Source: Nitrososphaerota archaeon (GTDB lineage: Archaea; Thermoproteota; Nitrososphaeria; Conexivisphaerales; UBA164). Taken from it: a stretch of 64,000 nucleotides of DNA. Position numbers and translations under genes: made by a program. The stretch lies in NCBI GenBank assembly GCA_023381255.1, contig JAMCTX010000002.1, positions 54,742 through 118,741 of the forward strand, written 5' to 3'. The notes below the pieces were generated by a model. The model ran no database searches and was not told where the DNA came from. It was given only the letters and a program-made list of their open reading frames with translations. Of this stretch, positions 3,091-6,192 are shown piece by piece. Within the stretch, counting starts at the first letter, position 1; every line of letters begins with the position of its first letter.

Positions 3091-3130
3091 AAATATTTAT
3101 TAACACTTAAAACAAGTGTTGGGAAGGTGA
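3091..3130 (+). promoter_or_regulatory. Promoter of the uL3 operon with inverted repeat and Shine-Dalgarno
   Basis: A TATA box (AAATATTTAT, 3091-3100) is followed at once by an inverted repeat AACACTT-AAAAC-AAGTGTT (3102-3120). With the usual 26-bp spacing the transcript should begin near 3121, so the repeat would lie between TATA box and start point, where a bound repressor would block initiation. The expected leader starts GGGAAGGTGA, whose AAGGTGA (3124-3130) is a good Shine-Dalgarno. A second inverted repeat, ACCAA-TTCAG-TTGGT (3064-3078), lies upstream of the TATA box. Confidence 0.5.
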
Positions 3131-3136
3131 AGGCTT

Positions 3137-4039
3137 ATAGGCCACAGAAAGCATCATGCACCACATAGAGGATCTTTGGCGTTTTATCCAAGGGTGAGGA
3201 CGTCTCACATTATGCCCAGGATAAGATACGTTAGTCAGGATAGTAATCTTGGACTAGCGGCAGCTGTTGGATTAAAGGCTGGTATGGGCCACGCTTTAAT
3301 TGTCGATGACAGGAGCGGGAGCCCAAATTTTGGCAAACCGCTTTTTGTTTCTTATACGGTTGTTGCAATTCCTCAAATCAAGGTGGTTGATGCGAAAATT
3401 TACAAGGAAATTGACGGGTATCTCAAAAACACCGGTAAGCTGGGACAGGATTCTGATATCAAGGGCGCTGATGAAATAAGGGCAATAGCCCAGATTGTCC
3501 CCAAGGATTCTGGTTTTTCGCAGAAAAAACCGTTTGAAATTGAAATCCCCATTACAGGAAAAAACAACGAAGAAAAGGCCGAATTTGTAAAAAAGTATAT
3601 CGGGCAGTCTTTTGACCAAAACGAGGTTCTGTCAAAATGGAGCTATGTAGATATAGTCGGGATCACTAAGGGCAGAGGGTTTCAGGGACCAGTAAAGAGG
3701 TTTGGGATAAAGAGGAAGCAGCACAAATCCAGGAAAAGCGTCAGGGCTGTAGGGACAATAGGTCCCTGGCATCCCGCATCCGTAATGTATACTGTTCCAA
3801 GAGCCGGGCAAATGGGATACCACAGAAGGACGATATACAACCTGAGAATCATGGGCATTTCCAAAGAGCCCGGAATTCAGCTTACGACCAAGACAGTAAA
3901 AGGCAACTATCTGCTGCTGAAGGGCACCGTGCCAGGACCGGTTGGAAGGCCAGTGGTGATAAGGAAGGCAGTGAGGATAAAGGCGCAGGCAAAAATGCCA
4001 TCCATAATAAATTTAAGCTTAAATGGTGTTAAAATATGA
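3137..4039 (+). CDS. rpl3: Large-subunit ribosomal protein uL3, apparent ATA start
   Basis: uL3 of the 50S subunit. From position 3137 the reading frame gives (M)GHRKHHAPHRGSLAFYPRV, matching the conserved N-terminus of archaeal uL3 (GHRK...RRGS). There is no ATG, GTG or TTG in frame between the in-frame stop at 3128-3130 and the TTG at 3176; starting at that TTG would cut off the conserved RGS segment. ATA at 3137 is placed 6 nt after the AAGGTGA Shine-Dalgarno, so it is the likely initiation codon, giving 300 residues. Further family features are VGLKAGMGHA, FGIKRKQHKSRK and GTIGPWHPA. The downstream uL4 start overlaps the stop by 4 bp (ATGA). First gene of the operon. Confidence 0.9.
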   Translation: MGHRKHHAPHRGSLAFYPRVRTSHIMPRIRYVSQDSNLGLAAAVGLKAGMGHALIVDDRSGSPNFGKPLFVSYTVVAIPQIKVVDAKIYKEIDGYLKNTGKLGQDSDIKGADEIRAIAQIVPKDSGFSQKKPFEIEIPITGKNNEEKAEFVKKYIGQSFDQNEVLSKWSYVDIVGITKGRGFQGPVKRFGIKRKQHKSRKSVRAVGTIGPWHPASVMYTVPRAGQMGYHRRTIYNLRIMGISKEPGIQLTTKTVKGNYLLLKGTVPGPVGRPVVIRKAVRIKAQAKMPSIINLSLNGVKI

Positions 4040-4785
4040 AAGCTCCTGTATATGATTTGGAAGGAAAAAAGGGAAGAAAAACTGAACTGCCGGAAATATT
4101 CGATTCAAGGGTCAATTCCACGCTGATAAATAGGGCATTTTGGATAATGTTTACCCATAATTTGCAGCCTCAGGGCAGGGATCCCATGGCAGGAATGAAG
4201 GTAAGCGCTTTGTCATGGAATACCGGACATGGCATGTCAAGGATTGCGAGGATAAAAGGCGCAGGAACCAGAAGGGCAGGGCAGGCCGGCGGGGTTGCCG
4301 GCGTCGTAAAGGGAAGGCTAACCCATCCGCCTACTTCATTAAAGGTAGTGTATAAAAAAATAAATAAAAGGGAAAAAATCTCGGCAACAATGTCGGCTTT
4401 GGCAGCTACCGCAAGTTCAGATATGGTTAGCTTGAGGGGCCATAAGATAGATCAGGACATTTCCGTGCCAATCGTTTTAGTAGACGAATTTGAATCGTTA
4501 TCCAAGACCAAGGATATAATCCAGGCACTTCTAAAGCTAAAGCTAAATGAAGAGCTTGAAAGGGTAAAGGAAAAAGGCGTGGGGCCGCTGATAGTTACCT
4601 CTACCAGGAACAGTTTATACAGGGCTGCCAATAACATATCAGGCCTTGAAGCTGTTACTGCAAGCGACGTCAGCGTTCTGCACCTGGCTCCCGGAGGAGT
4701 GCCGGGAAGGCTTGCGATATACACAAAATCTTCATTAAAAGCATTGGCAAAGAGGTTTGATGGGGTGGGCGCATATGGACGTTGA
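4036..4785 (+). CDS. rpl4: Large-subunit ribosomal protein uL4
   Basis: A 249-residue uL4, a 50S assembly protein that lines the exit tunnel. Family features include the N-terminal [36 protein letters not shown], the basic loop [21 protein letters not shown] (about residues 74-93) and the RLTHPPTS segment. The ATG overlaps the uL3 stop as ATGA, indicating coupling. In archaea and bacteria uL4 can act as an autogenous regulator of its own operon; nothing here shows that directly. Confidence 0.95.
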
Positions 4786-5041
4786 CACAGCTCATAACAT
4801 AATAAAAGGAGTATACAAGACAGAAAAGAGCGTTGACCTTATTTCAAAGGAGAACAAGCTGGCCTTTGTTGTTGACAGCAACGCTAATAAACGGCAAATA
4901 AAAGAGGCAATTGAATTGTTATACGATGTAAAGGTTGTTCAGGTAAATGTATTGAAGGGAATAAAGGGTAAAAAGGCCTATGCAAAGCTGGCGCCGCAGA
5001 ATCTGGCAAGCGAGCTGGCAACGAAATTAAGCGTGATTTAA
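4775..5041 (+). CDS. rpl23: Large-subunit ribosomal protein uL23
   Basis: An 88-residue uL23 that binds 23S rRNA next to the tunnel exit and helps dock SRP. Features are [35 protein letters not shown] and [19 protein letters not shown]. The start at 4775 is chosen over an in-frame ATG at 4757 because it follows GGGGTGGG by a suitable spacing and gives the usual family N-terminus; it overlaps the uL4 end by 11 bp. One base separates its stop region from the uL2 start, so the genes form a tight operon. Confidence 0.93.
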
Positions 5042-5042
5042 A

Positions 5043-5756
5043 ATGGGAAAGCATATTCTAACCCAAAGAAGGGGAAGGGGGACACCCCAGTTCCGTTCAA
5101 GAAAAACTGCAAAGGTAAGTTCAACCAGGTACCCGATAACTGACCCCTCTAAGACCGTGGAATATACGGTAAGAAACATAATACATGAAAGCGGAAGGCT
5201 TGCCCCATTGATGGTTGTATATGGGCAGGGTCATACGTACTATCTGCCGGCGGTAAAAGGACTGGAAGAAGGCAGAAAAATATTCATAGGCCCGGGGGCG
5301 CCTGTAAAGGACGGCAACATAATTCCTGTTGGCAATTTGCCTGAAGGAAGCCTCGTTTATAATATTGAGAAAGTGCTGAACGATGGCGGCAAATTTGTTA
5401 AAAGCGCCGGGGGATATGCCATTATAATGGGCCATGAAGCAGGGTGGACAAGCATCAAAATGCCATCAGGAAAAAAGATAACGTTTCCATCAAGCGTCAG
5501 GGCAACTGTCGGGATAGTCGCAGGGGGCGGAGTAAATGAAAAACCCATACTCAAAGCCACACTGCACAAGATGACTATGAGGGCAAGGGGAAGGAAATAT
5601 CCAACCGTAAGGGGAATTGCGATGTCTGCAGTTTACCATCCGCATGGCGGAGGGAGGCACCAGCATCCAGGCAAATCTACAACAGTTTCAAGGCTAACGC
5701 CGCCAGGCAGAAAGGTCGGCAACATTGCAGCCAGGAAGACAGGCAGGGGCAAGTGA
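5043..5756 (+). CDS. rpl2: Large-subunit ribosomal protein uL2
   Basis: A 237-residue uL2, a core protein of the peptidyl-transferase region. It begins MGKHILTQRRGRGTPQFRS as in archaeal uL2, and keeps the catalytic-centre segment AMSAVYHPHGGGRHQHPGKS near residues 198-217, with the conserved histidines in HPHGGGRHQH. The C-terminus is basic. Starts one base after the uL23 stop. Confidence 0.96.
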   Translation: MGKHILTQRRGRGTPQFRSRKTAKVSSTRYPITDPSKTVEYTVRNIIHESGRLAPLMVVYGQGHTYYLPAVKGLEEGRKIFIGPGAPVKDGNIIPVGNLPEGSLVYNIEKVLNDGGKFVKSAGGYAIIMGHEAGWTSIKMPSGKKITFPSSVRATVGIVAGGGVNEKPILKATLHKMTMRARGRKYPTVRGIAMSAVYHPHGGGRHQHPGKSTTVSRLTPPGRKVGNIAARKTGRGK

Positions 5757-5802
5757 ACATGACAGAAATATTTTTATTTAGCGCGGTTTGGAGTGGGTCT
5801 TA

Positions 5803-6192
5803 ATGCCAAGGGAATTCAAATACCGCGGATACTCTGCAAATGACCTGGTTAATATGCCGTATGATCAGCTTTTTCAGATACTCCCCTCCAGAGCCAGAAG
5901 AAGCCTGAACAGGCTTGGTTCAGAAATGAATCCGGGCAAAAAGGTTCTTTTTGAAAAGCTCAAACTGGAGAGGGAAACGACAAAAACCCATGACCGCGAC
6001 ACAGTAATTTTGCCGTTCATGATCGGCAAGAAGCTGTCCGTATATACAGGCAAGGAATTTGTTCAAATAGAAATAAAACCTGAGATGATAGGGCACTATC
6101 TTGGGGAATACGTAAGCCCGATAAAGAAAGTAGTTCATGGAACGCCAGGAATCGGTGCAAGCAGAAGCTCGCTATACGTTCCGCTCAAATGA
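5803..6192 (+). CDS. rps19: Small-subunit ribosomal protein uS19
   Basis: A 129-residue uS19 of the 30S head. Family marks are MPREFKYRGYSANDL, LPSRARRSLNRL, THDRDTVILPFMIGKKLSVYTGKEF and the C-terminal YVSPIKKVVHGTPGIGASRSS. The ATG at 5803 is preferred to one at 5788 because it follows GGAGTGGG and lies about 29 bp after a TATA-like ATTTTTATTTA (5769-5779), which could also serve as an internal promoter. The expected next genes (uL22, uS3, uL29) are absent: a convergent homoserine kinase overlaps its last codons by 8 bp, so the ribosomal cluster ends here. Confidence 0.95.
   Translation: MPREFKYRGYSANDLVNMPYDQLFQILPSRARRSLNRLGSEMNPGKKVLFEKLKLERETTKTHDRDTVILPFMIGKKLSVYTGKEFVQIEIKPEMIGHYLGEYVSPIKKVVHGTPGIGASRSSLYVPLK

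Follow-up and report, generated by a model that had tools for sequence, protein, structure and literature searches.

Conservation of a probable AUA or AUC start codon at the gene for ribosomal protein uL3 in Conexivisphaerales archaea

Very few prokaryotic genes are known to have a conserved start codon other than AUG, GUG or UUG. The infC gene, which encodes initiation factor 3 (IF3), starts with AUU in E. coli and with ATC in Streptomyces, and the Streptomyces sigR gene, whose start is GTC or GTT preceded by a conserved AGGAGGTG, is repressed by IF3 (PMC5472188). Chloroplast genes with conserved non-AUG starts are likewise described (PMC9845219). Our searches of the open literature turned up no description of AUA or AUC as a start codon in Archaea. 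Here we examine the start of the gene for ribosomal protein uL3 in a 64,000-nucleotide stretch of DNA (the window) from a Nitrososphaerota archaeon of the order Conexivisphaerales, a hot-spring group within the class Nitrososphaeria (GenBank assembly GCA_023381255.1, contig JAMCTX010000002.1, positions 54,742 to 118,741), whose source is a draft genome of 1.28 Mb in 25 contigs (G000).

The product of the gene at 3137-4039 scores above the curated cut-off for PF00297, its nearest solved relatives are archaeal uL3 proteins, and it carries the conserved N-terminal motif GHRKxxAPRRGSL. Reading 5' to 3', GGGAAGGTGA (3121-3130) is followed by AGGCTT (3131-3136) and by ATA (3137-3139), after which come the codons GGC CAC AGA AAG CAT CAT GCA CCA CAT AGA GGA TCT TTG, the last at 3176-3178. 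The original prediction had placed ATA directly before the conserved uL3 N-terminus, with an in-frame stop at 3128-3130, and both its coordinates and its bases are correct; only three codons (AGG CTT ATA) separate that TGA from the conserved GHRKHHAPHRGSL. Our reading of the open reading frame (ORF) agrees, too, that no in-frame ATG, GTG or TTG lies ahead of the TTG at 3176. (Note that a GTG at 3127-3129 sits within the Shine-Dalgarno sequence, in a different frame from uL3.) Judged from these features and from the comparisons below, AUA 3137 is very probably the uL3 start codon.

To compare uL3 starts among relatives, a check proposed together with the prediction, we searched 20 Conexivisphaerales genomes, 17 of which contained uL3, and read the start region in all 17 (the contigs L064-L069 are the same as those of G001-G006 and were counted once). 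AUA or AUC stands at the uL3 start in 14 of the 17, in three families, ATA being present in 11 genomes and ATC in three. Specifically, the window's own family, f1, has ATA in all nine genomes with uL3; the f2 genome G011 has ATC; and f3 has ATA in G012 and G014 and ATC in G013 and G015. In the fourth family, f4, ATG occupies exactly the homologous codon in G016, G018 and G019 and is followed by GHRKHSAPRRGS. No ATG, GTG or TTG occurs within 12 codons of the start position in any of the AUA/AUC genomes, so that the gene combines the lack of a usable standard start with AUH (AUA, AUC or AUU) at the homologous position in several lineages. The remaining members of the class mostly have ATG at this position, with TTG in L049 and L070 and GTG in L076; weak uL3 starts may thus have arisen repeatedly. 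We also scanned 398 genomes of the phylum with a uL3 N-terminal pattern in which the start codon was left free and the GHR motif was required. The pattern matched 211 of them, and among the uL3-like matches listed there was no ATA, ATC or ATT outside the order, all of these having NTG. A tree of four ribosomal proteins placed f4 beside f1 and f2 beside f3 (support 72-81), and the AUH start may therefore go back to the ancestor of the order, f4 having lost it, or may have been gained twice.

The leader that precedes the AUA or AUC is predicted to pair strongly with 16S rRNA. The 3' end of the 16S rRNA is GGCCGGATCACCTCC in both the window's genome and G012 (a query with CTGCGGYTGGATCACC as the anti-Shine-Dalgarno sequence gave no match; the actual sequence is GCGGCCGGATCACC). 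The predicted duplex energy between this end and the window's uL3 leader is -12.0 kcal/mol; we tested 61 window ORFs, and none has so strong a pairing at its first standard start. For the 14 AUA/AUC genomes the predicted energies all lie between -8.5 and -12.0 kcal/mol, whereas 13 relatives whose uL3 starts with ATG, GTG or TTG give -0.7 to -8.2 kcal/mol. Eleven of the 14 share the register of the 3' end of the predicted pairing, and in the other three this end is two bases closer. The original prediction had put AAGGTGA six bases before ATA, and the six-base spacing between GGTGA and ATA is the same in all nine f1 genomes, so that it is not due to chance. Together, the conservation of the start in three families, the presence of ATG as the corresponding codon of a fourth family, and a strong Shine-Dalgarno sequence at constant spacing strongly support the proposal that AUA is the uL3 start.

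Two further ideas about the leader were set aside. One was an upstream mini-ORF, ATG GGA AGG TGA (MGR-stop), acting through reinitiation or readthrough, which is absent in G005, G009, G010 and f3. The other was presentation of the AUA in a hairpin loop (GGC-UUAUAG-GCC), for which the middle pair is broken in G011, G012 and G014 and the folds are inconsistent. A tiny ORF of the form ATG GGA/GGT AGG TGA, ending in the Shine-Dalgarno sequence immediately ahead of the AUH codon, is found in the uL3 leaders of G002, G003, G004, G006 and G011 but is not conserved in the remaining genomes.

Within f1, the leader and start are almost unchanged, reading GGTGAAGG(CTT or TCT)-ATA-GGCCA(C/T)AGA, that is, GGTGAAGGYYT-ATA-GGCCA, among uL3 proteins whose identity to that of the window is as low as 46%. 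Codon identity at the invariant G, H and R that follow the start averages 0.93, compared with 0.43 over the remainder of uL3, although few codons are involved, and not one of 36 fourfold sites of invariant uL3 residues is constant within the family. All nine f1 genomes have A as the third base of the start codon, and the full set of 14 has either A or C but in no case G; across the same 14 genomes, only one of 26 fourfold sites lacks G and none is limited to A and C. Since a change of A to G is a transition that would give AUG, yet is absent, AUG seems to be selected against at the uL3 start, which is what these related genomes suggest rather than prove.

Several other accounts of the ATA could be imagined. 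Because the window comes from a draft genome, we considered a sequencing or assembly error, or a gene damaged in one metagenome-assembled genome (MAG). However, the AUA/AUC carriers include the single-contig genome G012 (1,593,902 bases) as well as MAGs from several projects, so neither an error nor a one-off can account for 14 genomes, and this explanation retains practically no probability. Almost as improbable is an N-terminally truncated uL3 made from TTG 3176. Although this is the first standard in-frame start, and of the kind that gene callers would pick, its use would remove GHRKxxAPRRGSL, which is common to the ATG relatives and largely to solved uL3 proteins; moreover, the codons upstream of it are kept in f1, and the homologous codon is CTA, CTC or TTA in relatives. 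Translation might instead begin at GTG 3127 in the other frame and shift by +1 into uL3 (GTG AAG GCT TAT, skip A, GGC), and GTG ARG GYN TAY is indeed open in several f1 members. Against such a shift, for which we see hardly any likelihood, the GTG lies inside the Shine-Dalgarno sequence and is replaced by GGG in G012, G013 and G014, the Tyr codon is CAT in G013, and f4 has ATG exactly at the position of the ATA. Finally, introns occur in archaeal mRNAs, and a bulge-helix-bulge intron, or else RNA editing, might supply an AUG in the mature mRNA. In most of f1, though, a TATA-like box lies about 33 nucleotides before the ATA, too close for an exon and an intron to fit in between, and the leader that is present is a correctly spaced Shine-Dalgarno sequence; we regard this explanation, too, as very unlikely.

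A far stronger competitor accepts the AUA/AUC start and denies it regulatory meaning: an ancestral change of the third base would have been tolerated by virtue of the strong Shine-Dalgarno sequence and would since have drifted between A and C. We hold this to be a serious possibility, somewhat short of even, as every AUA/AUC case has a strong Shine-Dalgarno sequence, the independent events on the tree are few, and f4 has ATG. It fits less well with the avoidance of third-base G in a set of genomes where nearly all fourfold sites admit it, with the ease with which a single transition from AUA to AUG could become fixed if neutral or favourable, and with the unusual conservation of the leader and first codons.

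The features of the locus are collected in Table 1. The gene uL3 is the first of a cluster with the order uL3-uL4-uL23-uL2-uS19. The overlap of the uL4 start with the uL3 stop is found also in G001-G004, G006, G010 and G012-G014, that is, in most of the AUA/AUC genomes, and makes it likely that translation of uL3 and uL4 is coupled. Six of the nine f1 genomes share the position of the TATA-like box, a putative promoter element. The uL3 protein has about 300 residues in most of f1, 354 in G009 and 327-343 in the order's other families; the probable cause is the loss of some 30-50 residues from within the protein (window 3137-4039; L005).

Table 1. Features at and around the uL3 start in the window
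Feature	Position	Strand	Remarks
TATA-like box TTTATTAA	3096..3103	+	33 nt before ATA; columns -34 to -41; putative promoter element
Shine-Dalgarno sequence GGGAAGGTGA	3121..3130	+	AGGTGA (3125-3130) predicted to pair with 16S 3' end ...GGAUCACCUCC
Spacer AGGCTT	3131..3136	+	six bases; nearly invariant in f1
Probable uL3 start codon ATA	3137..3139	+	order-wide: ATA n=11, ATC n=3, homologous ATG n=3
First codons GGC CAC AGA AAG CAT	3140..3154	+	unusual synonymous conservation
uL3 gene	3137..4039	+	ATA start to TGA stop; 300 residues; PF00297 match; solved uL3 relatives
uL4	4036..4785	+	ATG overlaps uL3 stop (ATGA)
uL23, uL2, uS19	4760..6192	+	downstream cluster genes; standard starts

Overall, we think it highly likely, on the strength of the sequence comparisons, that uL3 is translated by Shine-Dalgarno-dependent initiation at an AUA or AUC that is kept by selection and that probably limits a coupled ribosomal-protein operon. 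The AGGUGA of the leader would pair with the anti-Shine-Dalgarno sequence and place the AUA, six bases downstream, in the P site, where the ordinary initiator tRNA would decode it (or AUC in the sister lineages) despite a third-position mismatch; the weakness of the codon would be offset by the strong Shine-Dalgarno sequence. Initiation at uL3 would then be slower and sensitive to aIF1, which discriminates against non-canonical starts, and, given the overlap of uL4 with uL3, the uL3 start would probably cap the output of the entire uL3-uL4-uL23-uL2-uS19 cluster.

The purpose originally proposed for the AUA was to keep expression low or to link it to initiation factors. The analogy with infC and sigR makes this plausible, and it is in keeping with the apparent avoidance of AUG, but the strong Shine-Dalgarno sequence argues against simple low expression. 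That the AUA/AUC start has a regulatory role at all is a real possibility, to which we give slightly less than an even chance; the more specific proposal that Conexivisphaerales use a selected AUA/AUC uL3 start, under the control of aIF1, to gate a coupled ribosomal-protein operon is tentative and somewhat less probable still. Several points weigh against our overall reading. The strong Shine-Dalgarno sequence could render the codon nearly neutral, so that regulation would not be needed; the 14 genomes are kin, and support for the tree is moderate (72-81); the change to AUH may represent one or two historical events; and the f4 family manages with ATG. Nevertheless, the comparisons point to a conserved AUA/AUC start of uL3 that is real, unusual and long maintained, for which a regulatory purpose can be put forward as a hypothesis.

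We identified aIF1 in all five genomes checked; in G000 it is encoded on contig C3, apart from uL3. SUI1/aIF1-like genes number two in the f4 genome G019, which has an ATG uL3 (L169 and L174), versus one in each of the four AUA genomes checked. Running ARAGORN on part of G012 gave one tRNA-Met(CAT), and also a tRNA of class II length (L134:9467-9553); the latter, whose anticodon tta would correspond to a stop codon, is probably a mis-called tRNA-Leu or tRNA-Ser.

We also considered whether start-codon choice is relaxed in general. No other gene in the window shows the AUH-start pattern. Among 90 ortholog pairs from parts of G012 and G015, a loose rule flagged 10. For uL3 alone was there no plausible standard start; the other nine, in which the alignment continues upstream of the gene by at least a few codons, were judged to reflect alignment drift. 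A general relaxation was accordingly rejected on a search that covered about a quarter of one genome, and further AUH cases are therefore possible.

If the gating proposal is correct, uL3 would have the first conserved AUH start to be described from an archaeon, and the first archaeal AUH start to serve as a control point of ribosomal-protein synthesis. With AUA or AUC maintained across three families, this essential ribosomal protein would be a natural substrate for studying how aIF1 checks start codons, and gene callers that accept only three start codons will cut such genes short or misplace them. Conexivisphaera calidus is described as the only isolate among the class's non-ammonia-oxidising members (PMC10833072); a relative within the order, Conexivisphaera, is in culture, so the claim can be tested.

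When compared to archaeal uL3 genes that start with ATG, GTG or TTG, the gene described here has the same protein, operon position and start position, but those genes have a standard codon and, in the relatives examined, mostly a weak Shine-Dalgarno sequence or none. Chloroplast genes (PMC9845219) broadly resemble uL3 in that non-AUG starts are evolutionarily kept in selected genes, whereas they belong to an organelle of bacterial descent with other codons and factors. With infC, uL3 shares a conserved AUH start in a gene of the translation machinery, the third base depending on the lineage but not being G. Unlike IF3, however, uL3 does not itself check start codons, and regulation of its own synthesis in the direct manner of infC is therefore not expected; the organism is archaeal, with aIF1, encoded elsewhere, in place of IF3, and an effect of the uL3 start codon on expression is putative. 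The sigR gene differs in having GUH rather than AUH, in encoding a bacterial sigma factor of one genus, and in being experimentally proven. Even so, the uL3 leaders, like that of sigR, combine a non-canonical start of variable third base with a strong, conserved and constantly spaced Shine-Dalgarno sequence that, in the window, contains a misleading GTG, and uL3, like sigR, is followed by a downstream gene that is probably coupled to it.
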